This document shows, in pieces, positions 15,621-62,303 of a stretch of 64,000 bases of DNA (the first letter of the stretch is position 1; each line of letters begins with the position of its first letter). The notes under the pieces were generated by a model, which did no database searches, was not told where the DNA came from, and saw nothing but the letters and a program-made list of their open reading frames with translations. The DNA is from Paenibacillus azoreducens (lineage in GTDB: Bacteria; Bacillota; Bacilli; Paenibacillales; Paenibacillaceae): positions 4,369,501 through 4,433,500 of the forward strand of contig NZ_AP025343.1 in assembly GCF_021654775.1 (NCBI RefSeq), given 5' to 3'. A program made the position numbers and the translations under genes.

Positions 15621-15803
15621 TAACGGACACCACAGCCGCTAAGAGGTCAAAAACAGCCTTTTTTAAATTTTAACGGACACCACGACGCTTAATTGCTCCA
15701 AAACACCACCACAAAGGGACTTTTTGATTAAATAGCGGCGTCTGTGTCCGTTAGAATTCAAAACGGTCGAAATCATCCTCGATAGCGTCCGCTGTGTCCG
15801 TTA
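15621..15803 (+). repeat. Four-arm palindromic repeat, family 1, copy 1
   Basis: 183 bp. Arms start with TAACGGACAC at 15621 and 15671 (50 bp apart); the mirror arms end with GTGTCCGTTA at 15753 and 15803 (50 bp apart). The centre carries AAAGGGAC. It lies between the convergent ends of the phosphotransferase and DUF418 genes. Confidence 0.9.
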
Positions 15804-15956
15804 GAATTCTGCGCAGGTCAGCATCGTGTCATTTTGCGGCTCTGGCTCTGTACTTCTCAGAATTTCACTGAAGATTTGGAATGAGGTGCTGCCCCAAATG
15901 TAAGGTTCAATTGGTCTTGAAAACAGCCGACCTCATAGACTGCGAACTCCAATTAA

Positions 15957-16132
15957 TTGCAAAAGTGCAGTTTTTGGAGCTCGAATTGCAAAAAAATATC
16001 AAATGGTTGCGATAGTGCATTTATTTTCTCGTTCGAAGGATAAATGTAAATATAACAACGTAAAAAGATGCACTTTTGCAGGCTTTCTCCTGAAATTGGG
16101 CTAATACGATTGAAAAACCTGCACTTTTGCAA
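15957..16132 (+). repeat. Four-arm palindromic repeat, family 2
   Basis: 176 bp. Outer arms TTGCAAAAGTGCAG (15957-15970) and CTGCACTTTTGCAA (16119-16132) are perfect complements. Inner arms TTGCGATAGTGCAT (16007-16020) and ATGCACTTTTGCAG (16068-16081) are near complements. Offsets are 50 and 51 bp, the same plan as family 1 with unrelated sequence. The 60-codon minus-strand ORF across it is a by-product of the repeat. Confidence 0.8.
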
Positions 16133-16258
16133 CAATCTCGAATTTTCCCTTTACATCACATCGCAGTACATCAAAGCAAATCGCAACTGGCGAGTATAAT
16201 CAAAAAAGTCTATCCAAGAAGGGAATTACGGATGAGCCAGTCCCAAATTTAGAACAAC

Positions 16259-16307
16259 AAAGCCTTCAAAACCACCGCAGCAGCGGGTTTGAAGGCTTCT
16301 TTATTGT
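16259..16307 (+). terminator. Strong terminator without an assigned gene
   Basis: AAGCCTTCAAA with CC pairs with GG and TTTGAAGGCTT across an 11-nt GC-rich loop, then CTTTATTGTTT. It may end a short transcript starting near 16207. Confidence 0.65.
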
Positions 16308-16380
16308 TTGAAATCCTGCCTGTGGCGGGGCTTAAAAAGCATAAACGACTTTTAGGACAGCCCCTTCTCAGGCAATCTAG

Positions 16381-16473
16381 GACGCGGATTCTACCTGCGT
16401 CTTTTTGGTTCAAGCTCATCCATGAGGACCGATTCCGGCAGCTTGATCCCGCGGATTCTACCCGCGTCTTTTT
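16381..16473 (+). repeat. Two tandem copies of a terminator-like hairpin
   Basis: GCGGATTCTACC(T/C)GCGTCTTTTT occurs at 16384-16406 and again at 16451-16473. Each copy folds into a GC stem with an ATTCTA loop followed by five T and then (G/A)GTTCAAGC. The copies are 67 bp apart. Confidence 0.55.
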
Positions 16474-16548
16474 AGTTCAAGCAAACTTGCACCCTTATTT
16501 TCTTTAAAAATTCTAAATGTTCTATGGAATATCATTTTTCTATAAGTC

Positions 16549-17571
16549 CTATTGAAAATCATTTTTCAGCTGACGTTCCTGCTTCCCCTCAGATTTATAA
16601 TGCTCAGGAATTTTACCATACGTGCCTAACCGCCAAATCCATTCCAGAGGTCCCATAGCAAAACGTTTCAACCACATGGTGCTGATCACCATTTGGAGCA
16701 GCAGAATCTCTGCGGCAATCATGGCCAAGATCAAATAATAAGCACGCCCGCTCAGGCCCAGCACTGCATCCAATGTTAAAATGATGACGGTCTGCATAAT
16801 GTAATTGGTCAGCGCCATGCGTCCGAGCCGATTCAGCGGCATCAGCCACTTTCTCATGAACGGATACTGCAAAAGCAGCGTAAGCGACGTGACGTAAAAT
16901 ACATCTTCCGCAATGGCCCCCGCCGCCATCCCAACATCGAGCATCCCGGTTCGATCAATAATGGCATACTGCGCCCATAAGCCGAACGGGATGAGGACCA
17001 GCGAAACCACCTGCGCAATGATCCAGCGCTTCTTATATTGGCCCACCTGCTCAAATATGCGGCTTTGGCCCGCCCACAGGCCCAGTACAAACATGCTGAG
17101 ACTCATGCCGAGAGCTCCAAAACTTTGGCCCAAAACCAAGATCACGATTCCCAGAAACAGATTGACTGCAGGTTTCAAATTATACAACGGCAGCAGCAGG
17201 AAGCCCAAAATCGAATACAGCATCAACGCTTCTCCAGGCTGGAACTTGCTATGGATAAACCCGAATACGAGCAGAATCAGCAGCCTTCGCACAAACAAGA
17301 GATAGGCTTTATCCCCTCTCGCTTTGGCGCGGGAAATAAACAAGTAAAAACCTATACCGAATAAAAAGCTGAATATCGTATAAAAACGGCCGTATATCCC
17401 ATAATCAATTAGTTTTAATACGCCAACCTCAAGCTGGCTCCAAAATCCATAATCCTGCGGCATATGCTCATAAGGAATCATCTGAAAGATGTTGATGAAG
17501 ATAATCCCGACAAGCGCAAATCCGCGCAAATAATCCAGGACGTCAATTCGTTTCATGGTGAATCCGTTCAT
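16549..17571 (-). CDS. DUF418-family membrane protein
   Basis: 340 residues, starting at ATG 17571; an alternative ATG at 17556 (MKRIDVLDYLRGFAL) is possible. About nine to ten hydrophobic helices. The N-terminus RIDVLDYLRGFALVGIIFINI and the C-terminal half with NRLGRMALTNYIMQT match the DUF418/YeiB-like family of membrane acyltransferase-related proteins, whose substrates are mostly unknown. It starts 7 bp after the BceB-like permease, so it is probably cotranscribed with that transporter; a link to envelope resistance is inference. Confidence 0.85.
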   Translation of the reverse strand: MNGFTMKRIDVLDYLRGFALVGIIFINIFQMIPYEHMPQDYGFWSQLEVGVLKLIDYGIYGRFYTIFSFLFGIGFYLFISRAKARGDKAYLLFVRRLLILLVFGFIHSKFQPGEALMLYSILGFLLLPLYNLKPAVNLFLGIVILVLGQSFGALGMSLSMFVLGLWAGQSRIFEQVGQYKKRWIIAQVVSLVLIPFGLWAQYAIIDRTGMLDVGMAAGAIAEDVFYVTSLTLLLQYPFMRKWLMPLNRLGRMALTNYIMQTVIILTLDAVLGLSGRAYYLILAMIAAEILLLQMVISTMWLKRFAMGPLEWIWRLGTYGKIPEHYKSEGKQERQLKNDFQ

Positions 17572-17578
17572 CACCTTT

Positions 17579-19507
17579 CTAAACCATCACCCTTTTCAGT
17601 TTTTGAATATATCTGGTGCTGACCAGCAGGAAATACAGCGTCTGGGCTGCAAGAAATGCCGCCGAAGCGATTAGGACAGGCTGATTGACGTCATCCAAAC
17701 CAAATCCTTCCCGCACCCGGTTTAACACCACAAGTGTCTGGATTGCCGAGACGATTATCGGCGTAAAAAACAATACCGCAATTTGAATCGCCGATGATTT
17801 GCCCATTTCGCCCGGCTGCAGGCCGATTTTGGACATGGCGGTGTACATCTCTTGATCCTGCCGGAGTTCGGAATGAAGTTTGAAGTAGAGGAAGCTGGCC
17901 GAACAGACCGATAGCAAGGAAGCGATAAACACGCCGACGAAGCTCATCATCGCTACCCCTTGTTCTTGCATGGCATACCTTCCCCCGCGGCTATCCAGAA
18001 GATTGGCCGAGTGTTCTACGGAATTCTGTTTATACGCCCATTGTTGAAGCTCCAGGCCTAGCTTGTACTCCTGATCCTCTCTTCCCGGTTTGCCCGCATT
18101 GGTCCAGGCAGGAACCATATAAATGTACACGTCGTTGATCCGATAGCTTTTATTTTCCGGAATTTGTTTTGTCAGCTTTTCATAAACCGGACGGGATACG
18201 ACGAGCATATTCGTACCGGACAAGGGCGAAACCTCCTGTTTTGTCCGGATCTCCTTCATGATCTGCAGCTGCAGATCCGGATCCGCAAGCTTCACAGCGG
18301 AATTTTTGCCCCAATCCGGATTATTGCGCGCTTCATTATCGGATTGCACCAGCACGGCCTGATCACCCTGTAGAGAACTTGCTGCATCCAGCCCAAGCGC
18401 CTTCGCAATCTTTAAGTAAGTATCCGCCGGAACGATCGCAACTTCCGGTGTACGACCGGAGGCTTTGGCAGCAAAAGATTCCGTCCGGAACATTTGATAT
18501 TCGATGCCTGTTTCGTCCAACTTTTGCCCAATCACCATTAGATCATTTTCTCCCCGGCTTGGATCATTCAAGAAAAAACGGATTGCATAAGGGTTATTTT
18601 CGTATGCCCTCAGGTTGCCCAAATTCACGGACATGACAAAAGCGACAGCCATGCAGCAAATAGCGGTCACGACGGTAACCATAAACAGAACCCGCGCGTT
18701 ATCCTTGATTTTATAAGCCATTTCAGAAATCCAGATCAAGCGGGTACCCTTCCAGGTCAAGCGGCGGCTTTTTTTGAGCATGCGGAACACTAGAACCGTG
18801 ATCTGCGTGTAGAAGAAGTACGTTCCGGCAATTCCCGTCGCTGCGGCGATCGCGAGGTTTTTATCGACCGTATAGTAGCCTGCCGCCAGAAGCAAAATGC
18901 CGAACAAGGAAACCCCAATGGACACCCTCGGTTCTTTTTTCGGTTTGCTTGAACCTTTCAGCAGCTCCAGCACGCGGCTTTGATTGATAAAAAACAAGGT
19001 AAAGGCCGAGATGACTACAAATAAAAGGATAAACGAGCCTGCCGTCAGCAGGATTGCTTTTGCAGGAAAATATAATCCAAGTTCCTCGATGCCGATCATG
19101 CGGGCGCTCAGCGTCAAAAAAAGCTTGGAGAGCAACAGGCCTGCCAGCATCCCGGCGATGATCGAGAGAGCCCCAATCAGCATGTTTTCAACGAAAACCA
19201 ATCTGCTTATCTGACCTCGAGTCCCCCCAAGTATCGTCAAAATGCCGAATTCTTTATTTCTTGCCTTCAGAAAGATTCCGATCGAGTAAAGCACAAATAA
19301 AAATGCAAAAATGTAGATGACATATTCCATGATTCTCATGACCATCTGCACGTTGGACCCCAGCTCGGTCCGGTCGATATCCGGATGGAAAATAAACAGC
19401 GCATACGTAAAGAAAACCATGACCATAAAACAGCTGCTTAAAAAATAGGCAAAATACGCGCGTGAATTCCGTTTGACATTGTTAAACGCGAACTGAAGAA
19501 AGCTCAT
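17579..19507 (-). CDS. BceB-like ABC transporter permease (FtsX domains)
   Basis: 642 residues from ATG 19507 (MSFLQFAFNNVKRNSRAYFAYFLSS), overlapping the ATPase gene by 26 bp; the longer frame reads the ATPase out of frame. Ten predicted helices with the large extracellular loop between helices VII and VIII (about residues 310-520) that typifies BceB proteins and senses bacitracin, lantibiotics or similar peptides. FtsX-type regions lie at the N-terminal helices II-IV and the C-terminal helices. With the adjacent ATPase it frees lipid-II-cycle targets from antibiotic and signals to the BceS-like kinase at 20671. Confidence 0.92.
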   Translation of the reverse strand: MSFLQFAFNNVKRNSRAYFAYFLSSCFMVMVFFTYALFIFHPDIDRTELGSNVQMVMRIMEYVIYIFAFLFVLYSIGIFLKARNKEFGILTILGGTRGQISRLVFVENMLIGALSIIAGMLAGLLLSKLFLTLSARMIGIEELGLYFPAKAILLTAGSFILLFVVISAFTLFFINQSRVLELLKGSSKPKKEPRVSIGVSLFGILLLAAGYYTVDKNLAIAAATGIAGTYFFYTQITVLVFRMLKKSRRLTWKGTRLIWISEMAYKIKDNARVLFMVTVVTAICCMAVAFVMSVNLGNLRAYENNPYAIRFFLNDPSRGENDLMVIGQKLDETGIEYQMFRTESFAAKASGRTPEVAIVPADTYLKIAKALGLDAASSLQGDQAVLVQSDNEARNNPDWGKNSAVKLADPDLQLQIMKEIRTKQEVSPLSGTNMLVVSRPVYEKLTKQIPENKSYRINDVYIYMVPAWTNAGKPGREDQEYKLGLELQQWAYKQNSVEHSANLLDSRGGRYAMQEQGVAMMSFVGVFIASLLSVCSASFLYFKLHSELRQDQEMYTAMSKIGLQPGEMGKSSAIQIAVLFFTPIIVSAIQTLVVLNRVREGFGLDDVNQPVLIASAAFLAAQTLYFLLVSTRYIQKLKRVMV

Positions 19508-20255
19508 GCGCGTTACCTCCCAAATACGAAAGCATGTCGATGATTTTCTGGAAAAAGGTTTGGCGGCTGTCGCCCCGGCGGATTTCACCCGAAAGCTTTC
19601 CGTCTTTGATGAACACCACGCGATGGCAATAACTCGCTGCCAGCGGATCATGCGTCACCAGCATCATCGTTACGCCGTCGTCGGCATTCAGCTTTTCCAT
19701 GGTCTCCATGACCGTCTTCGAGGAAGCCGAATCCAATGCGCCCGTGGGCTCATCCGCAAGTAAAAGCGACGGCTCGGGAATGATGGCGCGCGCGATGGCG
19801 GCACGCTGTCTCTGTCCTCCGGATATTTCATACACCCTTTTGTTCAAAATCTCTTGAATGCCAAGCCGGGTCGCGATTTGCTCCAGCTTCGCTTCCATCG
19901 TCTGCAGATCCGCCTTATCCAGCGTAAGCGGCAGCACAATATTTTCCGCCACCGTCAGCGTGTCGAGCAGATTGAAATCCTGGAATACGAACCCCAGCTC
20001 GCGTCTCCTGAACAGGGACAGTTCTTTTTTCTTCAGAACATGCGGGTTGCTGCCGTTGATCAGCACGGTACCCGAGCTTGGCGTATCAATCGTGGACACC
20101 ATGTTCAGCAGAGTGGTTTTGCCGCTCCCGGACGGTCCCATCACGCCTACGAACTCTCCTTTTTGAATCGTTAATTCAATATCGGTCAAGGCCCTTGTGA
20201 TCACTTTGCCCGGATACACTTTGCTGAGGCCGGTTACTTTTAAAATATCACTCAT
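19482..20255 (-). CDS. BceA-like ABC transporter ATPase
   Basis: 257 residues. Walker A GPSGSGKTT, Q-loop FVFQDFNLLDTLTVAENI, signature ISGGQRQRAAIARAI, Walker B SLLLADEPTGALD, switch His MLVTHD; this is the MacB/LolD/BceA subclass. It powers the FtsX-type permease encoded next, with which it overlaps. The gene starts an operon whose upstream region carries a perfect AACCTTA-N8-TAAGGTT repeat, the probable site for the BceR-like regulator. Confidence 0.93.
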   Translation of the reverse strand: MSDILKVTGLSKVYPGKVITRALTDIELTIQKGEFVGVMGPSGSGKTTLLNMVSTIDTPSSGTVLINGSNPHVLKKKELSLFRRRELGFVFQDFNLLDTLTVAENIVLPLTLDKADLQTMEAKLEQIATRLGIQEILNKRVYEISGGQRQRAAIARAIIPEPSLLLADEPTGALDSASSKTVMETMEKLNADDGVTMMLVTHDPLAASYCHRVVFIKDGKLSGEIRRGDSRQTFFQKIIDMLSYLGGNAHELSSVRV

Positions 20256-20440
20256 CCTCGTTCTCCTTCCTGTATCTATTAAGTTGAAACGATGGTCATA
20301 CGGATGAAGGCGGCCCTTTTTTAGAATATCGAACCCTCTTGCCTATTCCTTCTCCTCTTCTTTAGTCAACTTATATAGCTTCTCTATGTATCCCACTTTA
20401 TAGCATTGGCGCTTTGCTTACTATGGATTCCCCTTAAACC

Positions 20441-20462
20441 AACCTTAAAGATTTGTAAGGTT
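20441..20462 (-). promoter_or_regulatory. Putative BceR-type operator upstream of the bceAB-like genes
   Basis: AACCTTA (20441-20447) and TAAGGTT (20456-20462) form a perfect inverted repeat with an 8-bp spacer, about 180 bp before the ATPase start. Bce-type transporters are normally activated by their own response regulator from such upstream repeats. Confidence 0.6.
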
Positions 20463-20502
20463 CTGTTCGGTATGATGTCATAACTCAGCCAAAATAAAAT
20501 AA

Positions 20503-20618
20503 CCCCACAAAGAGTATCGGAAAGAAGTAAGGGCGCCTCTCAAAGAGGGGCGCTTTTGCGGAGCAAAAGTACTGAGTGGGGCCTGCGCTTTGATGCTTAT
20601 TCCTATTACTTTCCGGGG
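20503..20618 (+). repeat. Nested hairpin repeat, family 3, long copy
   Basis: The left end CCCCACAAAG and right end TACTTTCCGGGG, with the shared core GATGCTTATTCC, match the 52-bp element at 59687-59738. Here about 60 bp carrying GCGCCTC/GAGGGGCGC and CTTTTGCGGAGCAAAAG hairpins sits between the left end and the core. Confidence 0.6.
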
Positions 20619-20670
20619 ACTTAAATAGAGCGCTATTCGTTATCGAGAGCGCCCTTTTGATCCATATACT

Positions 20671-21657
20671 TCACTTTTCAAACGTAAACCGAACCGTCGT
20701 CCCCTCGCCGGGTTCCGACTCCAACTCGATTTGGTGATCCAGCTTCAAGCATACTTCCCGTACCAGAAACAATCCCATGCCTGTCGATTCGTGATATTGT
20801 CTCCCTTGGTTGCCTGTAAAATAAGGCTCGAATACCCGGCCCAAATCCTCTTTGGCAATCCCGATTCCTTCATCCCTGATCTCCAAAACCGTATGCGGTC
20901 CCTGCCCATAAGCTATGAAAACAACTTTTCCCCCTTCCTCAATCGAATAATTCACCGCGTTGACGATCACCTGACCAAGAATAAAAGCCAGCCATTTGGC
21001 ATCGCTTATGATGCTTAGATCGGCAGGAACCCTGATTTCCGGGTAAATCCCCTTGCGGATAAACCACTGACGATTTACCGCAACGGCCTGCTCCACCGCA
21101 TCCCGCAGCGGAATGCTTTCCACCTTGAAATCCTGTTCAAACTTGTCCAGTCTGGAGGTATATAGTGCCATCTCCAGCCCTTTTCTCAGTCTGTCGATTT
21201 CCTCCTGCATTCCATCCGCCGCCTCATCTTCAATGTCCAAATCCTGCAGCGTGAGCTGAAGAACGGAAACCGGAGTTTTCATTTGGTGAACCCAACGGTT
21301 GATGAAGGCGGTATGATTATCCAGCTTCTGCCGCGTATCATACAGTTCATTTTTGTACATTTGGAATTGATGGCGGAGCAGATCGGTTACGGCGGCGGCC
21401 ATCGGCGTTTCTCCCAGGTCGCCCAGCGCTTGGTCCATTTCGGCCAGCGATGATTCAAGCCTCGCATACAATTTTCTTTGACTGTAGTAACGGAAGGCCA
21501 GATATAACAGCAGTACGGCAAAGCTCAGTAAAGCGCCGTAAACGACGGTAAACGCGGCATGATCCGGGACCGCAAGCCAATACCACAAGCCGATCAGCAT
21601 CATCTGTCCCGCGTAAAATAGCAGCAGCGGCAGCTGCTCACGTATGAACAGTCTCAT
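20671..21657 (-). CDS. BceS-like intramembrane-sensing histidine kinase
   Basis: 328 residues. Two N-terminal helices (about 12-30 and 37-57) with almost no external loop, the hallmark of intramembrane-sensing kinases that take their signal from the BceB permease. The H-box is FINRWVHQMKTPVS, the N-box VIVNAVNYSIEEGG, then RDEGIGIAKEDL and STGMGLFLVREVCLK. It overlaps the regulator gene by 4 bp. Location beside the BceAB-like transporter and the domain type together support a bacitracin- or lantibiotic-responsive module. Confidence 0.93.
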   Translation of the reverse strand: MRLFIREQLPLLLFYAGQMMLIGLWYWLAVPDHAAFTVVYGALLSFAVLLLYLAFRYYSQRKLYARLESSLAEMDQALGDLGETPMAAAVTDLLRHQFQMYKNELYDTRQKLDNHTAFINRWVHQMKTPVSVLQLTLQDLDIEDEAADGMQEEIDRLRKGLEMALYTSRLDKFEQDFKVESIPLRDAVEQAVAVNRQWFIRKGIYPEIRVPADLSIISDAKWLAFILGQVIVNAVNYSIEEGGKVVFIAYGQGPHTVLEIRDEGIGIAKEDLGRVFEPYFTGNQGRQYHESTGMGLFLVREVCLKLDHQIELESEPGEGTTVRFTFEK

Positions 21658-22361
21658 TTTTCAGCATATCCTTCCAGCTTCAGCTTGTAGCCCGCACCGC
21701 GAACAGTTTCCACCGGCTCGGCTAATCCTAGCTCGCTCAGCTTCTTTCGGATTCTTGTAATGTATACGTTCAAGGTATTATCATCGATAAAATGCTTGTC
21801 CTCCCACATTAAATCCAGCAGGCGCCCACGGCTGACAATGCGGTCGGTCTTTTTCATGAGCGCTTCAACCAGCACCGATTCTTTTTGCGTGAGTTCAACC
21901 GTTTCGCCGCGGTAGGTCAATATAAACCGTTCCGGATACAACACCAGCCCCGATGTTTCCACGGTTCGTTCTTCCGTTCTGGCGGAATAGGAACCGTATG
22001 CCCTCCGCAGATGACTGCGGATCTTGGCGACGACCACATCGTAATAAAAAGGTTTCGTGATGTAGTCGTCGGCTCCGTTCTCCAGCGCCATCACCTGGTC
22101 CATCTCGCTTTCTCTGGCCGATATAAACAGAACTGGACAGGTGGACAGCGACCGGATTTGCCTGCACCAATAAAATCCGTCAAACATCGGCAAGTTCACG
22201 TCCAGCAAAACCAAATGCGGCCCTATCTCTTTGAACTCATCCAAAACATGGGCAAAGTCCGCCACCCTGAAAGCCGTATAACCATATTTCTCAATATGCG
22301 TTTTTAATAGAGAAGCAATTTTGGCATCGTCCTCAATAATCAGTATTTTCACTTGATCCAC
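21654..22361 (-). CDS. BceR-like response regulator (OmpR family)
   Basis: 235 residues. Receiver with EDDAKI, phospho-acceptor LVLLDVNLPMFDG, VLFISARE and KPFYYDV; the C-terminal winged helix has LTQKESVLVEALMKK and NTLNVYITRIRKKL. It is the first gene of the kinase operon. It likely activates the transporter genes through the repeat at 20441-20462. The absence of a separate repeat before this gene suggests its own expression is less tightly controlled, as in B. subtilis bceRS. Confidence 0.93.
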   Translation of the reverse strand: MDQVKILIIEDDAKIASLLKTHIEKYGYTAFRVADFAHVLDEFKEIGPHLVLLDVNLPMFDGFYWCRQIRSLSTCPVLFISARESEMDQVMALENGADDYITKPFYYDVVVAKIRSHLRRAYGSYSARTEERTVETSGLVLYPERFILTYRGETVELTQKESVLVEALMKKTDRIVSRGRLLDLMWEDKHFIDDNTLNVYITRIRKKLSELGLAEPVETVRGAGYKLKLEGYAEK

Positions 22362-22511
22362 GGTCTTACCTCCATTCTCGCCCCATTCGCGGATTGTGAA
22401 TCTCTTTTATATCAAATCAGCCAACCGATTCATATCATATACAAAAGTTCTTCGCACGCGCAAAACATGCTTCCGCGATGTGCGGATGATGCGGAAGAAG
22501 GGGATGACAAC

Positions 22512-23045
22512 ATGGTCAATTTCAAGATCTTCAACAAATCCAGCCTGCCTCTGTACACGCAAAACGTCAATACGTACACATCGCCCGGCATCGGTTCGCT
22601 CCCAAGTTCCAGTGCCGCGTCGGCCGGGGCTTCTTTTACCTTGACATCAGGCAGCGTCACCGTTCCGATTTCGCAAAACCTTCTGCTTCAAATCAGCAAC
22701 CCTGCTGGAAGCGGTAAAACGGTCTACGCTTCCAGTATCTCCGGAGGGTCTACGGCTGCGGCCACAGTGAATGTGTATTCCGGCGGCACGATTACTGGAG
22801 GGACGACACCTACGCCTCAAAATAATCTGTTTGGAAGCACGATCACCTCCATCGTAACGACACATCAAAACAACGGAACCCTCGGCGGCAGCCCGGTGCT
22901 TTACATCAACGTTCCCGTTACGGCCGGACTGTACTCGATTAGTTTGAACGGTTCGCTCGTCGTCCCCCCTGGCCAAACATTGACGATCACTCTTGGAACA
23001 GGCGCGCTGACGGGCTCGATCAATCTTTCCTGGTGGGAAGCTTAA
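22512..23045 (+). CDS. Ser/Thr/Gly-rich beta protein, paralog A, unknown function
   Basis: 177 residues from ATG 22512, 9 nt after an AAGGGG box; the open frame extends upstream without an RBS. It begins VNFKIFNKSSLPLYTQNVNTY and ends GSINLSWWEA. The composition is rich in Ser, Thr, Gly and Ala, with almost no charge or Cys, and strand-like alternation. Internal marks shared with the next gene are ISNPAGSGKTVYASSISGG, TPTPQNNLFGSTIT and VVPPGQTLTIT. No signal peptide. The look is that of a self-assembling beta-sandwich, as in fibres, spore-surface or tail-like proteins, but the family is not recognised. Confidence 0.75.
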   Translation: MVNFKIFNKSSLPLYTQNVNTYTSPGIGSLPSSSAASAGASFTLTSGSVTVPISQNLLLQISNPAGSGKTVYASSISGGSTAAATVNVYSGGTITGGTTPTPQNNLFGSTITSIVTTHQNNGTLGGSPVLYINVPVTAGLYSISLNGSLVVPPGQTLTITLGTGALTGSINLSWWEA

Positions 23046-23083
23046 GAGCTGCAGCTAATGGCGAACAATAAGGAGGAAAATAC

Positions 23084-23662: not shown

Positions 23663-23678
23663 ACCGAAGGGCTGGGCT

Positions 23679-28513: not shown

Positions 28514-28600
28514 AAAAAAACAGACTCCTACCAGTAAAGAAAAGTTCTACTGGTAGGAGTCATTAGCCTTACGGCGGTTATGGCGAACTCCATCGCCTAT
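28514..28600 (-). ncRNA. Fluoride (crcB) riboswitch with terminator
   Basis: Minus strand. The aptamer reads GGCGATGGAGTTCGCC, ATAACCGCC, a short linker, then CTAATGACTCCTAC (28600 to 28551), matching the crcB-motif consensus including the GAUGG and CUCCUAC pseudoknot parts. The aptamer 3' strand also pairs in the terminator: ACTCCTACCAGTA with TACTGGTAGGAGT followed by seven T. Fluoride binding holds the aptamer and should prevent the terminator, turning on the CLC exporter. Confidence 0.93.
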
Positions 28601-28613
28601 ACAAGTTATTCCC

Positions 28614-30810: not shown

Positions 30811-30993
30811 TAACGGACACCACGGACGCTATTTCGCAAAAAACAATGATTTTCACATTCTAACGGTCACCACAGCACTTAATGGCTGTAAACTATCGCC
30901 AAAAGGGACATTTTTAGCTAGTTAACGGCCGCTGTGTCCGTTAAAAAGCAAAACGCATGAATTTGAGCTCAATAGCGGCAACTGTGTCCGTTA
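30811..30993 (+). repeat. Four-arm palindromic repeat, family 1, copy 2
   Basis: 183 bp. Arm starts at 30811 and 30861, mirror-arm ends at 30943 and 30993, all 50 bp apart. The second arm has TAACGGTCAC as in copies 3 and 4. Centre CCAAAAGGGACA. Confidence 0.9.
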
Positions 30994-44715: not shown

Positions 44716-44898
44716 TAACGGACACCATGGACGCTAATTCGTAAAAAACAGCCATTTTCAAATTTTAACGGTCACTACAGCGCTTAATTGCTGTGAATCG
44801 ACCCCAAAAGGGACAATTTTCACTAAATAGCTGCAGCTATGTCCGTTAAAAATCATATTAGTTAAAATTGCGCTCTATAGCGTCCGCTGTGTCCGTTA
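44716..44898 (+). repeat. Four-arm palindromic repeat, family 1, copy 3
   Basis: 183 bp. Arms begin at 44716 and 44766; mirror arms end near 44848 and at 44898. Centre CCCCAAAAGGGACA. It lies between divergent sulfur genes. Confidence 0.9.
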
Positions 44899-54274: not shown

Positions 54275-54276
54275 AG

Positions 54277-54304
54277 CAAAAACAGCCCGCTTCAAATGCG
54301 GGCT
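54277..54304 (-). terminator. Terminator abutting the group II intron
   Basis: AGCCCGC pairs with GCGGGCT, then GTTTTTGCT, after which the intron begins. This is the characteristic insertion target of group IIC introns. Confidence 0.75.
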
Positions 54305-54596: not shown

Positions 54597-55874
54597 CTAG
54601 TGCTTTTCCAAAGTACGAATAGATTTGACCCGCGGAATCACAAACGCCAGCAGCACCACCAAAATGCCCAATATCATGAACATCATGCCGATGCCGCGTC
54701 CCTCGCCGATCCCAATCAATTCGCCAACAGTAGAGGCAAGCGCGCCCCCCTCCCGCAAGAGCGGGTTAAACACATGGTCCGCCAAAAAACCGGAAACGGC
54801 ATAAGCGGCCACATAACCTAGCTGCGATAAAATGCCGATGATTCCCCAAGCCCGCCCTTGGGCTTCATTCGGAATCGTTTTGCGGATCATGACGTCTGCG
54901 CTCGTATTAACAAACGGCAGCGCGGCGAAAAACAGAAATCCCGTGCCTGCGATAAAATACACATTCGTGGTGAGGCCGATCAATGAAAAGAAGACTCCCG
55001 CAACACCTAAGCCCGCGGCCAACATATAAATGTATTTGCTGTTGATGCTGAATGTACCGATGAACAGGCTGCCGATCAACATTCCCGCCGCGCTTACCGA
55101 CAGGACCGTCCCGATCGTTTGAGAATCCGTGATGGGCATCAGCATTGGCGTAAATAAAGTTTGGAGGAATCCCACATAAAAAGTAACGAGGGAAAGAATA
55201 ACAGTCAACTGCAGCACACCCTTTGCGGCAGCCAAAGTATCCCAGCCTTCTTTTAGCTCTTTGAGAAGCGATTGTCGTTTTTGTGTTTCTTGCTGAGGCG
55301 CTTTGAGATTTCTCTTCACGGCAAAAACCGTAAGCATCGTAACCAGAAAGGTCAAGATGTCTATGATCAGAACGCCCCTGATATCCATTATTCCAAGTAA
55401 AATTCCTGCGATGACCGGGGAAAGAAGATACTTGGAGGAGGCGGCAAGCTGAACAAGACCGCTGGCTTTGGCAAACTGTTCCTCTGTCAGCAAGTCCGTT
55501 ATGGTGGCTTTATATGCCGGCTCCAGCAAAGAAACAAAAATCGAGCTGAACGTAACGCCAAGATATATTTTCCAAGGAGAAGGATCGCCAACCAGCATCG
55601 ATATGAGTATGAATATAAGCCCTATTGCGGAAAACAGGTCGCCAATGATCATCATGAGCCGCCGGTCAAAGCGGTCTGCCAGCACTCCGCCGACGGGGCT
55701 CAGCAAAATGGAAGGCAGGAACGCGCAAAGGGTCAATAAAGCGACACTGGTTGCGGTATGCGTCATTTTGTAAATATGAATTCCCAGCGCAAAAGCCGTT
55801 AAGCCGCTTCCGATACTGGAGATCCATTCTCCGGTCCATAACACCAAAAACTTTCCGAACGATTTATTGCTCAC
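54597..55874 (-). CDS. MFS transporter, enterobactin/macrolide-efflux type
   Basis: 425 residues if GTG 55874 is used (GTGAGCAATAA overlaps the TetR stop by 11 bp, with AAGGAGG 12 nt upstream); ATG 55901 is the alternative. Twelve helices with the MFS loop signature GGVLADRFDRRLMMI between helices 2 and 3. The sequence resembles MefA/EntS-like exporters (GEWISSIGSGLTAFALGI, EPAYKATITDLLTEEQFAKASGLVQ). Probably exports a drug or siderophore-like compound, repressed by the overlapping TetR gene. Confidence 0.88.
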   Translation of the reverse strand: MSNKSFGKFLVLWTGEWISSIGSGLTAFALGIHIYKMTHTATSVALLTLCAFLPSILLSPVGGVLADRFDRRLMMIIGDLFSAIGLIFILISMLVGDPSPWKIYLGVTFSSIFVSLLEPAYKATITDLLTEEQFAKASGLVQLAASSKYLLSPVIAGILLGIMDIRGVLIIDILTFLVTMLTVFAVKRNLKAPQQETQKRQSLLKELKEGWDTLAAAKGVLQLTVILSLVTFYVGFLQTLFTPMLMPITDSQTIGTVLSVSAAGMLIGSLFIGTFSINSKYIYMLAAGLGVAGVFFSLIGLTTNVYFIAGTGFLFFAALPFVNTSADVMIRKTIPNEAQGRAWGIIGILSQLGYVAAYAVSGFLADHVFNPLLREGGALASTVGELIGIGEGRGIGMMFMILGILVVLLAFVIPRVKSIRTLEKH

Positions 55875-56550
55875 CTTCCCGGCCCGCCTCCTTTCCCCCA
55901 TCGCTGTCCGCAAGCTCTGGCTGCGTCTGAATTAATCGGGATACATAGGCGAAACTCCCTTTCTCCGCGCCAAGCATCATCTCCATGTTATAGATAAATG
56001 CCTCGATTTTTCGGGCATACTCCTCAGATTCCCAGCTGAATATTCCTTCATCAAACAAAAACTGCGAGGCTGCGAGCAAAATTTCCATCGATTCTTTCGG
56101 ATATGGATTCCGGAACAGCTTTTCCTTGATCCCCTGTTCGATCACCTCCGTTAAAACGGGAGTGAGCTTATGAATCGTTAATGCTAGGCTGCTCTGGTGA
56201 ATTTGCGCATTCTCCGGTTGGTGAAACTGTTCTATGAGGCGGCCCTTTCTGCCCGTGTCCGGCTTTTGCGCCATGATGATTTGAAACAGCTTTTCATGAA
56301 CCGAAAGCCCGTTATTCGAGGCAATTCGTTTCGCGGCCTCTACCCCTGCATCGATATAACGCATTACAACCGCATCCATGACCTCTTCTTTGGATTTAAA
56401 ATAATAGTAAAAGGTTCCTTTAGCGATACCGATCGCCTGCAAAATATCATTTACCGTCGTTTTGGCATAACCTTTCGTGAAAAAGAGCTGTTCTGCCGCA
56501 TCCAATATTTCATTTCTGCGCTCTTCCGGTTCTTTTAAAATCCTCGTCAT
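55864..56550 (-). CDS. TetR-family transcriptional repressor
   Basis: 228 residues. N-terminal HTH: RRNEILDAAEQLFFTKGYAKTTVNDILQAIGIAKGTFYYYFKSKEEVMDAV; the ligand-binding domain fills the rest. It is translationally coupled to the MFS gene and its own promoter carries a palindrome, so autoregulated repression of the pair is likely, relieved by the exported compound. Confidence 0.93.
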   Translation of the reverse strand: MTRILKEPEERRNEILDAAEQLFFTKGYAKTTVNDILQAIGIAKGTFYYYFKSKEEVMDAVVMRYIDAGVEAAKRIASNNGLSVHEKLFQIIMAQKPDTGRKGRLIEQFHQPENAQIHQSSLALTIHKLTPVLTEVIEQGIKEKLFRNPYPKESMEILLAASQFLFDEGIFSWESEEYARKIEAFIYNMEMMLGAEKGSFAYVSRLIQTQPELADSDGGKEAGREGEQ

Positions 56551-56565
56551 TCGGACCTCCTTTGT

Positions 56566-56618
56566 ATAGACTGACTGTCGGTCTATTATGATTATAGAGG
56601 AAGTCCAGATTTTGTCAA
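56566..56618 (-). promoter_or_regulatory. Promoter and TetR-type operator of the tetR-mfs operon
   Basis: -35 TTGACA (56613-56618), 16-bp spacer, -10 TATAAT (56591-56596). Directly downstream is ATAGAC-TGACTGTCG-GTCTAT at 56566-56586, a symmetric 21-bp site of TetR form (inner GAC/GTC also paired). Confidence 0.8.
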
Positions 56619-56641
56619 TCTTAAAAAAATGGGGTGCAATT

Positions 56642-56673
56642 AAAAAAAAGCGGCTCTTTTACGAGCCGCTTTT
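56642..56673. terminator. Bidirectional terminator
   Basis: AAGCGGCTC with GAGCCGCTT around a 6-nt loop, flanked by eight A and by TTT. It ends the decayed permease gene transcribed leftward. Confidence 0.8.
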
Positions 56674-56678
56674 GGAAT

Positions 56679-57660
56679 TCATTCGTTGCGGATCATGTCG
56701 TGCCTAAAGCGACCGGTACAGGTGCATTTTTTTCTTGATTTGTCTTTAGTACGGTAATTCCCCTTAATTCCCCACGTCATAATTGAAATTGGCAGCAAAT
56801 GCAGCACGAAGCTCCATAGATTCTGTCCAATGTATATGAGCTGCATAAACCCAGGGACCCCTGAAGGCAGGAATTGCCCAATATGTTGATAAAACGGTGC
56901 TAACAATGGGGAAGGAATAATGTTTCCCCCTGTCATTAACATTAGCGGGACAAACAGCAGGTTGAAAAAAGGCACAAAATGGCCAAACAACGCAAGGCCC
57001 ATCTGCGTGACGCAAATACTCTCTAGAAGACGCAGGATTCGAATAGCCACATTTTCCAAAAAGGCGCAGCGGGTTCAACAAAGAGATGAATGATCGATAC
57101 AATAATTAATGGGATGAATATAGAAACAAGCAGTAACAGAAGTTGGCGGCTCCAAAATATTTTCCATTTTGCATGTTTTTTCTTCAGCACTAGCGATGAA
57201 AGTCTTAAGTGAACATTCATCGTCATCGTAGCAATATATGAAATGAAGCCAAGCAAAATCGGTACCATGGTTATAGCAAAGTTTTCCTGTTGATGGGTTT
57301 TGATAATCTCTGCATGCAGAGGCGTGCTTTCTGTATGGCCTCCTATGGCTTTGGATATTCCTTCGGTGATGGAAGTAGCAGCTTTTTTCAGCCGCAGTAG
57401 ATGCAACTTGCGAGGTTCCCTGGTTAATATAACAGGTCAGCTTCGCTTGACCGGATTTGAGGCCGACCGCGAAGTTCCGGGGAATCACGCCAACCATCGA
57501 ATAGTCCCCATGCTCCATTTTTTTATTCGCTTCTTCTACGCTGTAGAGAGTCTTCGCTTGAAAAGGAACCGAACTCATGATTTTATTTTGAATGGATTGC
57601 CAGCTCTCCCGTCCTAATTGACGATGGCGATATGAAGCTTGTTAATATACTGTGTCGCAT
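56679..57660 (-). pseudogene. Decayed YhgE/Pip-type (ABC-2-like) membrane protein
   Basis: Three overlapping frames join into the C-terminal part of a YhgE/Pip-like protein: KLHIAIVN then a stop, SWQSIQNKIMSSVPFQAKTLYSVEEA, MVGVIPRNFAVGLKSG, LTCYINQGTSQVASTAAEK (to about 57400), then a frame change into ATSITEGISKAIGGH and membrane helices (57406-57060), then another into RLLESICVTQMGLALFGHF and further helices to 56679. At least two frameshifts, an internal stop and loss of the N-terminal helix and long ectodomain. An intact relative would be a membrane protein of the phage-receptor/type VII-like family. Confidence 0.75.
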
Positions 57661-57682
57661 TATAGTAACCTGTCATCCAAAC

Positions 57683-59185
57683 TTATGGTCTTTCCTCGGC
57701 AAACTTCGAGGTCAGGTATTTCACCTCGGGGTATTCGCCGCTTGGGGCGTCAAGCAAGCTTCCGCCTTTGTGCTTTAAATATTTGTCAAAGAAATCGAGC
57801 GTATATGCGTTTACGATAGCGGCCGATCTTGCCGGGCTGATTTTGCCGGTTAATTTGAACTGTTGGAAAAGCGGGGTCAAGAACTGCAAATCTGCTAAAT
57901 TGTAATGCTCTGTATTCTCGATATATAAAATTTGACCTCCATTTTTAGCCACATGTTCAAGATGTCCAACCTGGGTTTCTGCTCCTTTGATGTCCTTCTC
58001 GATCTCTTCTTTTGTGACTCCCTTCTCCTTCAACTCTTCGTCCGTATAGACATAATGTTCTCTGACTTTATTGAAAAGATCGAAACCCATTTCAGAAAAC
58101 ATGAACATAAACGGCTTCGACAAAGGCTTTTTGTCGTAAAGGTAAAGCGAACCGTCCAAATCAATCCCTGCCGTGATTCTAGGATCATAGGCCGCGTCGT
58201 ATGATGCGGCTCCGCCGAAGGAATGGCCGAACACGCCCACGCGGCCAAGATCGATTTTTCCGTTGAATTCGCTTGGAATTTCTCCGGAATTGATCCGTTC
58301 AAGCTGATCCAAGGTGAATGTAATATCGTCCGTCCATACCTTACCGACCTTGTTGCGGTATTGTTTTTCGCCGATCAAATCTTCGTCCGTTTTCATCGTC
58401 GTTGTTCGACCATCCGGAAATACGGTAGCTGACGTGCTGTAAGTATGGTCGATGGAGGCAACAATGTAGCCGTGGCTTGCGAGATTTTCCGCCTGGGATG
58501 TATGGTATATTTTCGAAGAGCTATATCCATGATTCAGAATGATTAACGGATAAGACGGGCTGAAGCCGGATATCTCGGCATTTTCGTAAGAATGGCTCGA
58601 AATGTTTTTCATGTATTCCACAAACATCGTTGGGATTCCAAACGTCTTGGACACCGGTTCTTCCTTTAAAACCTTGTCGGCATCGGAGATAAAAGGCAGC
58701 GGCTTCCCCTTCGTATTTTGTGCCGGATACCAAACTTGGACCATCAGCTCCCTTTTGCCTCCTGGCGCATCGCCGAATATTTCTTTCCTGCCTTCATCGA
58801 CGAAGTGGAAGGTTTGCGTGCCTACTTTAAGGCTGCCTGTCGGCTCCGGCAATTGGAATACCGGAAAAACATACATAAGAGCTCCGGTTAAGAGCAGCGA
58901 CGCCGTTCCTGCCGAGAAGAGGGTGATAGATAAGAAGCGCGGCATTTTCCAAGCAGCGGTTTTATCGAACAAAGCCAAGACCGAGACGGTCAGAAAAGCG
59001 ATGGTGATGCAATAAGGGAACAAAAGCTGTATTCTGTAGCCTTCTACTATCAAATGGATGATCAGCAGCAGCGTACCGGTTATGCTGGCAATAAATAACG
59101 GCATTCCATTGTTCTTTTTACAGAACATTTTTATAGCTAATAAACCTGCACTGGTTAGAAGAAGTAGAATCTCAAATAGTCTCAT
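57683..59185 (-). CDS. Membrane-attached PAF-acetylhydrolase-like serine hydrolase
   Basis: 500 residues. About four N-terminal helices (1-115) are followed by an alpha/beta hydrolase domain facing outward. Motifs: VQVWYPAQ, the oxyanion-region HGYSSSKIYH, the nucleophile elbow GHSFGGAAS (Ser), ITAGIDLDGSLY with Asp, and a late His in ENTEHYNLAD. This matches bacterial platelet-activating-factor acetylhydrolase/dienelactone-hydrolase-like proteins, which release short acyl groups from lipids or xenobiotics. Substrate unknown. It stands just downstream of the second kinase region, but transcription appears independent. Confidence 0.85.
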   Translation of the reverse strand: MRLFEILLLLTSAGLLAIKMFCKKNNGMPLFIASITGTLLLIIHLIVEGYRIQLLFPYCITIAFLTVSVLALFDKTAAWKMPRFLSITLFSAGTASLLLTGALMYVFPVFQLPEPTGSLKVGTQTFHFVDEGRKEIFGDAPGGKRELMVQVWYPAQNTKGKPLPFISDADKVLKEEPVSKTFGIPTMFVEYMKNISSHSYENAEISGFSPSYPLIILNHGYSSSKIYHTSQAENLASHGYIVASIDHTYSTSATVFPDGRTTTMKTDEDLIGEKQYRNKVGKVWTDDITFTLDQLERINSGEIPSEFNGKIDLGRVGVFGHSFGGAASYDAAYDPRITAGIDLDGSLYLYDKKPLSKPFMFMFSEMGFDLFNKVREHYVYTDEELKEKGVTKEEIEKDIKGAETQVGHLEHVAKNGGQILYIENTEHYNLADLQFLTPLFQQFKLTGKISPARSAAIVNAYTLDFFDKYLKHKGGSLLDAPSGEYPEVKYLTSKFAEERP

Positions 59186-59780
59186 CTTGAACTCTCCCGT
59201 TATGTTGTAATGTGGATTTCGGAGCTATTATTTCGCCGCGCTATAAGGCCAGACCTTATGGACCTCAAAAGCAAATCCCCGCCGGCTGCAGGAGCGCCTT
59301 TCGCAAAGATGCAGCGAATTTCATGGCGGCGGAGGAATCAAAGAATGACCCGTGCTTGTCGCTTTCGCAATATCCCTCCCTCTTTAGCGTAATGGCCTTT
59401 ACTCTGTGCCCCCGCATTCTCAATGCCCCCATCCTCCTGCCAACGATCATATCTGGCGATTATGAATGGACAGTGAATCGAATATGAACGGAAGATGAAC
59501 AGGATTAAAAAACGTTTTATTGACCTATGACGACGAAGACAGAGCGCTTTTCGCTGCGGTATTTTGCGTTGATGATGGCCTGACGGTTCCGCCATGCGGG
59601 AGTCATCCGGATTCTGGTTCATATGGTTGAAACTTTGCATTAAATGTGTTTTCCCAGGGAATTGACTTTCCCGATATCTAAAAAAGCCCCACAAAGTGGA
59701 GCCTATGCTTCGATGCTTATTCCAAATACTTTGCGGGGGCCCCAAAAAACTTATAAATTCTATAATCGTAAAAAAGCCCC
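59186..59780. other. Intergenic region, 595 bp
   Basis: No gene recognised; small ORFs in several frames give no family. It contains the short copy of hairpin repeat family 3 (59687-59738) and the terminator of the kinase operon. Confidence 0.5.
59687..59738 (+). repeat. Hairpin repeat, family 3, short copy
   Basis: 52 bp from CCCCACAAAG to TACTTTGCGGGG, forming a hairpin with CCCC(A)CAAAGT paired to ACTTTG(C)GGGG. The inner part GCCTATGCTTCGATGCTTAT is shared at about 84 percent (by eye) with 20576-20618. Confidence 0.65.
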
Positions 59781-59809
59781 TTACGGAAAATTCCGTTCAG
59801 AGGCTTTAA
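59771..59809 (-). terminator. Terminator of the second regulator/kinase operon
   Basis: AAAGCC(T)CT...ACGGAA pairs with TTCCGT...AG(G)GGCTTT and runs into TTTTTT on the minus strand. The stem covers the last codons of the kinase. Confidence 0.75.
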
Positions 59810-61202
59810 GCGTCGATACATTTTGCTTGGCAGAGCTTATAGAATTAGAACTACGCCTGCCGGGAAAAACGACTTTGAGAACGGTATCTGTACCGGGGGA
59901 GCTGCGAACGATGAAAATCCGGCCTTCGTGCAGCTCAACGATCTTCCTCACGATCGCAAGGCCAAGCCCGCTGCCCTTGGAAGATCGATTTCGCGACCGG
60001 TCCGCTTTGTAGAACCGTTCGAAAATATGGTTGACCTGATCCGGAGAGATGCCTATTCCCGTATCGGCGACCGTCACTTCGATCCCGCTCGTAGTGGAGC
60101 GTAAGCCGATACTGACCTTGCCGCCTTCGGGCGTGAATTTAATGGCGTTGCCTAGCAAATTCAACCAAACCTGATTTAATTGATCCGGATCGGCGGTAAT
60201 ATAGACTTCCGGCAGATCGAGTTCGATAGTGATGCGCTTGCCGGACCAATGCGGCTCCAGCGCCACGGCAACTTGGCGGATTTGTTCGTCGAGCGCGAAC
60301 GTCATCGGCTCGAATGGATGATGCTCTGACTCCAGAGAGGCCAGATGGAGCAAATTGTCGCTAAGCCTTGAAAGCCTTTCGCTTTCGCCCGCAATGATAT
60401 CCAGGTACCGCTCCCGTTTCTCGCCGGGGATAACGCCATCCCGCAGCGCTTTGGCGAAGCCGGCAATGGAAGTCAGCGGCGACTGCATCTCGTGGGACAC
60501 GTTGGACACGAAATCTTGACGCATTTGCTCTATTTGCTTAAGCTCCCGCACCATATGATCGAAGCTTCGCGACAGTATCCCAAGCTCGTCCTTTCGGTTC
60601 AGGTTCAGCTCGACGCCGAAGTCGCCGCGGGCCATTCGCTCCGTGGCGTCGGTCATGCTGCGAATCGGCCTGACTAGGAAGCGGGAAGCGATCAAAAAGA
60701 TGAGGCTGCCGACACCGAACATGATCAGCAGGAACGTAATTAAAATCCTTGGCAGCGAAACGTCGTTGTTGTATACCGGCATAACGAACAAGGCATACGT
60801 TTCTCTGTTCAGTTCAAAGGGACGGCCGACGATTTCCGTTTCTCCGCCGTCCGATATGACCGTTTCCCCGTTCAATACCTGCGCGGCCTCCTCTGCCGTT
60901 ACGTGAATCCCGTCCGTCGCATGTACGGCGTTAAGAACGAAGACGTCACCGCTGCGGCCGATGATGCGGATCGAGTAGTTGCGCAGGGCACGCACATTGT
61001 TGCGAAGCGATTCCTCGCCTTGATCTGCGGTGTTGGCATAAATATCGACAAGGTCATTTGCGACAGACATTGTCTCTTGATGGACCTCCTTCGCCATCTG
61101 TTTCTGAAAGATCGTCCAGGTGAACATAAAGGCGATAGTCATTCCAACGCTAACCGCAAGCAGAAAGATGAGAACCACGCGGACGTACAATGAACGTATC
61201 AT
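59781..61202 (-). CDS. Membrane sensor histidine kinase (HAMP-HisKA-HATPase)
   Basis: 473 residues; ATG overlaps the regulator stop (ATGA). TM1 (about 8-30), an extracellular PAS/Cache-like sensor (about 31-150), TM2 (about 155-178), HAMP (RFLVRPIRSMTDATERMARGDFGVELN), H-box FVSNVSHEMQSPLTSIAGF (Gln where most have Lys), N-box WLNLLGNAIKFTPEGGK, DTGIGISPDQV and SSKGSGLGLAIVRKIVELHEG. It phosphorylates the regulator encoded just upstream. No target operon is marked by sequence. Confidence 0.93.
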   Translation of the reverse strand: MIRSLYVRVVLIFLLAVSVGMTIAFMFTWTIFQKQMAKEVHQETMSVANDLVDIYANTADQGEESLRNNVRALRNYSIRIIGRSGDVFVLNAVHATDGIHVTAEEAAQVLNGETVISDGGETEIVGRPFELNRETYALFVMPVYNNDVSLPRILITFLLIMFGVGSLIFLIASRFLVRPIRSMTDATERMARGDFGVELNLNRKDELGILSRSFDHMVRELKQIEQMRQDFVSNVSHEMQSPLTSIAGFAKALRDGVIPGEKRERYLDIIAGESERLSRLSDNLLHLASLESEHHPFEPMTFALDEQIRQVAVALEPHWSGKRITIELDLPEVYITADPDQLNQVWLNLLGNAIKFTPEGGKVSIGLRSTTSGIEVTVADTGIGISPDQVNHIFERFYKADRSRNRSSKGSGLGLAIVRKIVELHEGRIFIVRSSPGTDTVLKVVFPGRRSSNSISSAKQNVSTLKASERNFP

Positions 61203-61876
61203 CCGTTCACCTCAAGGCGGTAACCGATTCCGCGCACCGTCTCGATCCGGAATTGGTCGGCATCGCTCGCGAACCGTTCACGCAGCCGTTTGATATGGAC
61301 ATCGACGGTGCGGTCATCCCCATCGTAACCGAGTCCCCATATTTGTTCGATCAGTTGACCTCTTGTGAAAATTTGCCCTGGATAGCTGGCCAGCTTGTAC
61401 AACAGCTCGAACTCCTTTAGCGGCAGCGCGAGCGGCTCGTCGCCGCGGAACACTTTATAAGCTTGCCGGTTCAAAAGCAGCTTGCCAAGCCTAATCGTCT
61501 GAGTCGACGTAATCCGGTAACGCTTCAGCAGCGCCTTGACCCGCATGACCAACTCCAACGCATCGAACGGCTTGGTCATATAATCGTCGGTTCCAAGCCG
61601 AAATCCTTTTACCTTATGCGCGGGTTCCCCTTTGGCGGAAATCATCATGAGCGGTAAATCGGGATATTCCGCGCGCAGCGCACTGCATAATTGCCAGCCG
61701 TCCATACCTGGCATCATAATATCGAGAATGACGAGATCGGCCTGCACGCTCTTAACCGCTGCCAGCGCCGCCGCGCCGTCTTCCGCATACGTCACTTCAA
61801 ATCCTTCACTCTCCAAATAAACACCGATCAACTCACAAATATGCTCGTCGTCATCCGCAACTACAATATGGGCCAT
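61199..61876 (-). CDS. OmpR/PhoB-family response regulator
   Basis: 225 residues. Receiver with ADDDEHI, LVILDIMMPGMDGWQLC, LMMISAKGE and KPFDALE; DNA-binding winged helix LPLKEFELLYKLASYP to RTVDVHIKRLRERF. First gene of the kinase operon. A 790-bp upstream region separates it from GtrA and contains repeat family 1 copy 4. Confidence 0.93.
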   Translation of the reverse strand: MAHIVVADDDEHICELIGVYLESEGFEVTYAEDGAAALAAVKSVQADLVILDIMMPGMDGWQLCSALRAEYPDLPLMMISAKGEPAHKVKGFRLGTDDYMTKPFDALELVMRVKALLKRYRITSTQTIRLGKLLLNRQAYKVFRGDEPLALPLKEFELLYKLASYPGQIFTRGQLIEQIWGLGYDGDDRTVDVHIKRLRERFASDADQFRIETVRGIGYRLEVNG

Positions 61877-62121
61877 TCTTTTCTCTCCTCTTCTCCTTAT
61901 GTAGCTCCATTATATCGCGGTCGCCTAAAATTTGGATAGCCGCGGGTAATGGATTAGTATGATTTGAAGCATTCGAAGAATTTACATTCATTGTGGAATT
62001 TACACTTAATTGGGTAATTTAAGACTAAATAGGATAATTAATTTATAACGGGGCTCAACCTTTAATGAACACAGGAACACAGGGGGCCGCTATTGAGGGG
62101 AATTTCGACCATTTCGATTTC

Positions 62122-62303
62122 TAACGGACACAGCGGACGCTATATGGGCTAATTTCGGTCATTTTGATTTCTAACGGACACAGTTGCAGCTATTTAGTGT
62201 AAAATGCCCTTTTTTCGACGGATTGATGCTATTAAGCGCTGTGGTGACCGTTAGAATTTGAAAATGGCTGTTTTGCGCGAATTAGCGTCCATGGTGTCCG
62301 TTA
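62122..62303 (-). repeat. Four-arm palindromic repeat, family 1, copy 4 (inverted)
   Basis: 182 bp in the opposite orientation to copies 1-3. TAACGGACAC starts at 62122 and 62172; mirror ends at 62253 and 62303. Read on the minus strand, its first two arms match copy 3 almost exactly. Centre AAAAAAGGGCA. Confidence 0.9.

Follow-up and report, generated by a model that had tools for sequence, protein, structure and literature searches.

To our knowledge, REPIN–RAYT is the known example of dispersed short repeats that have been kept for millions of years together with a domesticated enzyme, and the reason for their persistence is open. As described in sections of two published accounts, the repeats are extragenic and of fixed architecture, the gene of the cognate domesticated enzyme has an element in its flank, several sequence flavours exist with several enzymes, and tandem clusters include flanking DNA (PMC3116915, PMC8049555). 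Miniature inverted-repeat transposable elements (MITEs) such as Chunjie and Correia are, in the part of the source that treats them, shorter than 500 base pairs (bp), inverted at their ends, extragenic and present in tens of copies (PMC10969869). Here we report on a 64,000-bp stretch of DNA from Paenibacillus azoreducens (contig NZ_AP025343.1, positions 4,369,501 to 4,433,500; hereafter the window), which holds four copies of an intergenic, four-armed element of about 183 bp, and on a previously unrecognised nuclease-like gene whose linkage to the element is new here. This linkage suggests a second, independent partnership of repeats and an enzyme; it is the strongest new fact of the analysis, and the mechanism is the weakest part.

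The arrangement resembles REPIN–RAYT in several ways. Both have extragenic repeats of fixed architecture and tandem clusters that take in flanking DNA; the enzyme gene is flanked by an element (25 of 30 loci here), and the flavour of the element matches the enzyme (17 of 19 loci, with codes that cluster on the protein tree). The parts, however, are different. REPIN–RAYT uses a Y1/HUH tyrosine transposase (TnpA-REP), whereas the protein described here has a PD-(D/E)XK/EDxHD-like model and a winged helix, with no Y1/HUH domain found; two inverted repetitive extragenic palindromic (REP) hairpins contrast with four arms over 183 bp, conserved at the level of the duplex and without a covarying stem; and the element was seen only in Paenibacillales. 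As neither the enzyme class nor the two-REP architecture is matched, we do not file the element as a REPIN–RAYT member. The nearest nuclease counterparts are the EDxHD homing endonuclease I-Bth0305I (PDB 3r3p) and the endonuclease-like NGO0050 (3hrl); unlike these, the gene here adjoins the element without interrupting it at the loci seen, pairs with many dispersed copies and has a C-terminal winged helix. With MITEs the element shares the size, inverted ends, extragenic position and copy numbers given in that source, but no target-site duplication (TSD) or parental insertion sequence (IS) was found for it, and its four phased sites, conservation in place and linked nuclease-like gene set it apart. 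The bcr1 repeat of Bacillus cereus, at ~155 bp, is a dispersed repeat of similar size in a Bacillota group; it differs in sequence and has target duplications, and we know of no partner gene for it.

Our preferred explanation, to which we give somewhat better than even credence, is a REPIN–RAYT-like pair built from unrelated parts, a four-site DNA platform and a nuclease-like, winged-helix partner. The element would be duplex DNA that presents four protein-binding sites of ~22 bp each (TAACGG with two or three code bases, then G15, then Y-TATTT). Its partner, a Paenibacillales protein of ~215 residues, would combine a Vsr/EDxHD-like endonuclease domain with a C-terminal winged helix, and its gene usually lies just upstream of one element copy. 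Acting as dimers, the protein would read the arm code through the winged helix and fill the four sites, folding the element into one complex; the nuclease and host repair would then maintain the element and very occasionally spread it, much as single-copy domesticated RAYT transposases serve REPINs. On the broader proposition, that this is an independently evolved second system of a repeat population plus a domesticated enzyme, in which the nuclease reads and maintains four-site elements, the code diverges with the protein, and the whole is old in Paenibacillales and apparently moved between families, our judgement is evenly divided. If true, an unrelated nuclease and an unrelated DNA architecture would have reached the same arrangement, which would make the question of persistence comparative and testable. 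It would also offer a functional hypothesis for hundreds of proteins whose present label is hypothetical or 'transcriptional regulator', a natural code of DNA recognition between arm bases 7-9 and the winged helix and, for biochemical work, a substrate with four defined sites.

The copies in the window and the features beside them are as follows, with arms annotated as 24 bp each.

15621-15803, plus strand: element copy 1, 183 bp; arm a 15621-15644, b 15671-15694, b' 15730-15753, a' 15780-15803; between convergent genes.
30811-30993, plus strand: element copy 2, 183 bp; arm a 30811-30834, b 30861-30884, b' 30920-30943, a' 30970-30993; between convergent genes.
44716-44898, plus strand: element copy 3, 183 bp; arm a 44716-44739, b 44766-44789, b' 44825-44848, a' 44875-44898; between divergent genes.
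62122-62303, minus strand (inverted): element copy 4, 182 bp; arm a' 62122-62145, b' 62172-62195, b 62230-62253, a 62280-62303; between tandem genes.
62085-62121, minus strand: decayed extra 50-bp right-hand unit beside copy 4, in the same 50-bp register (repeat family D2, 62085-62134).
15560-15620, plus strand: left flank of copy 1, resembling the flanks of other copies in the same genome, for example the copy beside the nuclease-like gene.

The first-pass annotation had called these four copies at the same coordinates and lengths, and direct reading, repeat finding and a motif-blind scan all recover them. The spacing of 50 bp that it reported between a and b and between b' and a' is exact on both sides of every copy, and the intergenic settings, assigned from open reading frames (ORFs) and Pfam names, are convergent, divergent and tandem as it had described. 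The scan, which accepted any 8-mer repeated in the geometry (50-bp pairs, 160-205 bp overall, at most two mismatches), gave 20 matches in the window, all of them within the four copies.

Across 193 distinct elements, the length is 183 bp in 165, 182 bp in 26 and 184 bp in 2, within the 181-185 bp permitted by the pattern that fetched most of them. The arms, ~24 bp long, follow the consensus TAACGG-NNN-N5-G-N3-(C/T)TATTT, in which the inner end (CCGTTA-like) weakly mirrors the outer end, and the sites are spaced 50/62/50 bp apart, each half holding two arms and mirroring the other. TAACGG is followed by a variable 'code' that is common to the four arms of an element: agreement at positions 7-9 is 0.89, 0.92 and 0.72, against 0.63, 0.46 and 0.33 expected from the pooled composition, with a weaker excess at some positions up to 24 and none from 25 on. 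Such sharing is the pattern expected of sites for one sequence-reading protein. The code subfamilies are AC, AA, TT, CG and others, occasionally two within one genome. A diverged version in genome G063 (L274 2604-2796) is 193 bp long and has a TAACGA core, the same 50-bp pairs and a centre longer by 10 bp, or about one helical turn (0 in 10 shuffles); it stands downstream of the nuclease-like gene, in a genus that the exact pattern scores as element-free.

The family extends well beyond the window. In the P. azoreducens genome (7,316,152 bp), a covariance model of 28 copies finds 77 sites at 110 bits or more, a lower bound, since 150 of 2623 candidates were scored; the other rows among the 138 matches are opposite-strand or partial. 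The exact geometry occurs at 54 places, against none for a reversed-pattern control, and tandem groups of five elements (5683006-5684253) and three (1351907-1352621) are present. The model also matches 34 of 60 relatives, the own genome counted, in 10 of 17 genera, with up to 44 candidates scored in each of them. Taken alone, the geometry is found in 71 of 296 genomes of the order and 25 of 48 genera, at 1 to 103 copies (reversed control 0), and across the phylum in 2 of 398 genomes, both of the genus of the window. The search of the genome and its relatives thereby bears out the family first proposed from four copies, with the geometry kept far beyond chance. A collection of named species contributed at least 119 stretches, and those listed belong to Paenibacillus, Cohnella, Fontibacillus, Saccharibacillus, Gorillibacterium and other Paenibacillaceae. 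Plasmid and phage records gave no BLAST match to one copy used as the query. Two IMG/VR contigs classed as viral (L091, L092) carry one element each, and may be prophage or host flank. No description of the element was found in the literature on Paenibacillus repeats and MITEs or on nuclease-linked repeats, as judged by titles and with most subscription journals outside the coverage; the listed matches to motif strings were, by title, primer-like chance occurrences.

Clustering of the ORFs around elements revealed a gene family encoding a protein of ~215 residues, which adjoins elements in seven loci of different species and genera and lies upstream of the element in all seven. No Pfam, NCBIfam, PADLOC or PHROG identity was found for the protein, which gave only weak winged-helix matches; a Pfam search with four of the proteins at E ≤ 10 likewise returned no Y1_Tnp and only weak winged-helix matches. 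In public records, the best 120 of 744 homologues (E 0.001) are named 'transcriptional regulator' or hypothetical. The AlphaFold2 model has a beta-beta-beta-alpha-beta nuclease-like core followed by a C-terminal winged helix, and the modelled fold of the core is Vsr/EDxHD-like; of its counterparts, NGO0050 is Vsr-like. D72, E85, H92 and D103 are among the invariant columns of the nuclease-fold part, in an alignment made within the family. HUH or TnsA entries were absent among the fold matches listed, which excludes nothing.

The P. azoreducens genome has one full copy of the gene (G000:C1:5582156-5582797), with an element ~238 bp downstream, and a distant paralogue without an element. There are also two gene fragments (tblastn E ~2e-7 each), one ~70 bp upstream of an element (6294006-6294189) and the other ~380 bp upstream of a second element (5546473-5546656). 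In the protein tree, the full-length protein falls beside those of a different family (f6: G201, G121; support 100/100) and not beside those of its congeners, a placement that suggests horizontal transfer or old paralogy. The ratio of non-synonymous to synonymous substitution rates (dN/dS) is 0.00-0.16 in 12 comparisons, indicating that the gene is maintained under purifying selection.

Gene and element are coupled in position, in occurrence and in code. Of the 30 loci (L232-L261) that best match a query protein taken from an element-bearing locus, 25 have an element in the 900 bp downstream of the gene and 8 have one upstream, against 0 of 1200 for shuffled downstream DNA. A downstream call tolerates as many as 5 mismatches in the 24 core positions; at most three are present at 13 loci, and four or five at 12. 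Two of the five loci without a downstream element are cut by contig ends. When four loci are removed because their protein was already in the set, the counts become 22 of 26 downstream and 6 upstream. When gene copies without the element were searched for other four-arm motifs, L274 yielded the 193-bp TAACGA version, L285 has decayed copies upstream, and none was seen in L273, L280, L256 or L245. Of 80 genomes in which no homologue reaches E ≤ 1e-10, none has the exact element, compared with 42 of 50 with a homologue at E ≤ 1e-86; over five cut-offs, Fisher p is 7e-12 to 7e-24, with the relatedness of genomes ignored.

The code also varies with the protein. On the protein tree, the code of the gene-side element changes 9 times among 40 genes, compared with 21.1 after shuffling (0 of 300 as low), or 17 times against 28.8 when 'no element' is counted as a label. 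Of the single labels, AC changes 7 times against 13.1 and TT 6 against 10.9 (0 of 500 each), AA 6 against 7.6 (26 of 500), and the absence of an element 8 against 8.4. Among 19 gene loci, the gene-side code is the one that prevails in the other elements of the genome at 17 (mean after shuffling 8.4, 0 of 10000); the loci are a set picked by hand in which several genomes are closely related and both misses fall in G191. Of the options that the first-pass annotation had offered, binding by a phased protein fares best, and adjacency, co-occurrence and code have supplied a candidate in the ~215-residue protein; the binding itself is what we infer from them.

Elements are kept in place while their surroundings change. 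In 11 orthologous pairs from several species pairs, gap columns number 2 of 2011 within the element against 427 of 2640 in the adjoining 120-bp flanks, where 490 of 2213 ungapped positions differ. Nine pairs of equal length have mismatches at 65 of 864 arm positions (7.5%), 140 of 783 spacer positions (17.9%) and 5 of 288 positions of the 8-bp cores, with the exact cores and near-constant length partly due to construction, as the pairs were chosen by a pattern match on both sides (exact or at most 4 of 24 mismatches); they overlap in species, and three come from one trio. In a test from G031 to G036 that did not demand the motif in G036, five of seven testable copies are intact at 183 bp, with mismatches at 25 of 480 arm and 69 of 435 spacer positions; of the other two loci, one has lost its first arm to a local repeat and the other has no recognisable element. 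The sample comprised 11 stretches, one of them truncated at a contig end and the remaining 10 with anchors, of which eight were found in G036, one partly and one not, and one of the eight ends at a contig edge. The earlier suggestion that architecture rather than sequence is selected is largely right, as lengths are nearly fixed and orthologues hold their length while the spacers drift, although the 8-bp arm cores are strongly conserved too. Almost all elements (198 of 202) do not overlap ORFs of at least 120 residues by more than 30 bp. Those between two ORFs number 191, in 63 convergent, 109 tandem and 19 divergent settings against a background of 175/612/171 (958 heuristic ORF pairs, same loci; p 7e-6), and they favour convergent and avoid divergent gene pairs.

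An ordinary non-autonomous transposon family, in which the arms would be the sites of some transposase (for example, an IS630-like one with a TA target) and the gene a frequent neighbour without a role, is distinctly unlikely in our estimation. Inverted terminal arms, extragenic dispersal and a patchy occurrence, with related genomes holding between 0 and 103 copies, fit a MITE, and C at -1 (73%) and G at +1 (75%) at the element borders are compatible with a CTAG/TA target; IS630 elements prefer TA. Recent amplification is visible in two groups, and in both the repeated unit is larger than the element: a MITE of ~345 bp in G232/G281/G259 and one of ~285 bp in G099 and P. agaridevorans. Both MITEs are bounded by outer terminal inverted repeats of their own and hold the 183-bp element as their core. 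Two further carriers, with two copies each, occur in P. daejeonensis and Paenibacillus sp. YN15, so that the element forms the core of four unrelated MITE families (L084, L188, L113; L176, L185; L097, L137; L302-L321), and some of its dispersal is hitch-hiking. This weighs against our preferred nuclease-based reading, in which the enzyme would disperse the element, as do two other observations: 9 of 71 element genomes carry only distant homologues of the gene, and 76 genomes with a homologue at E ≤ 1e-70 lack exact elements. The MITE explanation, for its part, faces the absence of any convincing TSD excess at 3-12 or 14 bp in 193 elements; the best signal of 396 length and offset combinations, 8 against 2.6 expected at 3 bp, was taken as noise, and a TA duplication would be indistinguishable from the TA of the arm itself. 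No element-free version of the ~345-bp and ~285-bp MITEs was found, and no empty MITE site, as no match crossed the joined flanks by more than three bases (40 of 41 and 40 of 47 first-look candidates scored in one run). In a search that was not exhaustive, no autonomous parent with the same ends turned up, only ISs inserted inside elements, and the longer interiors examined hold IS110, IS3-type (rve, HTH_21) or other DDE transposases. Old copies keep their length and cores while the flanks vanish, unlike decaying MITEs, and gene adjacency, code matching and the co-occurrence profile would all have to be coincidences. The first-pass annotation had considered the perfect ends as possible terminal inverted repeats of a MITE; the inverted ends, size below 500 bp, multiple copies and lack of coding capacity agree with this, whereas the missing TSD and the larger amplified units with outer repeats of their own do not.

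A site that benefits the host, at which a domesticated, non-cutting DNA-binding protein would let elements dock or insulate near gene 3' ends, would explain their extragenic position and convergent excess, the conservation in place, the low dN/dS and the public name of the protein. We nevertheless regard such an architectural or regulatory role as unlikely, given the patchy presence (0-54 copies in the genus of the window, 0-103 in the order) and the four invariant acidic and histidine positions in the nuclease-fold part, which a pure DNA-binding factor need not keep. A structured RNA, or a bidirectional terminator or attenuator, appears very improbable. Three single-copy folds do beat their shuffles (z -4.9 to -6.3), and the enrichment between convergent genes would suit a terminator, but only 1 of 28 pairs predicted by RNAalifold shows two-sided change, the covariation term is -0.03, and the remaining pairs are invariant or broken on one side. 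Arm b has A or T at position 7, with T in 14 of 28 copies, giving a T:T mismatch in b:b', and over the 193 elements the arms agree mainly in TAACGG and the code, G15 and the following (C/T)TA. In the absence of covariation, what is conserved is the sequence of the duplex and its spacing. The cruciform or structured RNA that had been suggested is thus not supported, and with no Rfam match to the element either, the RNA reading was rejected. An integron attC site was considered for the GTTAGAA-like arm ends and set aside, since the copies are dispersed and isolated, with no cassette array.

Elements look like a frequent landing place for ISs. An IS110-family transposon lies inside the b'-a' spacer at two sites of the P. 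azoreducens genome, 3977396-3979164 (L041 1897-3665) and 5469024-5470792 (L042 1725-3493). These 1.77-kb composites are 99.3% identical, their differences are confined to the left ~130 bp and their homology ends at about the element boundaries, a pattern that fits either mobility of the unit or conversion. The composite was rejected as an autonomous version of the element; its inner gene is an IS110-family transposase inserted into an element. The longer MITE interiors of G281 and G099 contain IS3-type (rve and HTH_21) or DDE_Tnp_1 transposases, and IS3-type insertions lie within element copies of these two genomes (L362-L365).

A flank of ~60 bp (TTTTGAGACAAAA..CATAACATTTTCAT..GGTGGTGACCGTGAGGTCATGTG) is repeated beside several elements of the P. 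azoreducens genome, at window positions 15560-15620, in L042, in L254 (downstream of the element) and in L041 at ~3790-3865; judging by this resemblance, the left flank of copy 1 is possibly the remnant of a larger carrier unit. Single arms can multiply too: in L017 at ~1460-1500 (near 2552027 in the same genome), tandem 19-bp TAACGGACACCACGGCCGC-like units stand immediately before an element. Elsewhere in the window, an Rfam search places a fluoride riboswitch aptamer at 28547-28606 on the minus strand (62.8 bits).

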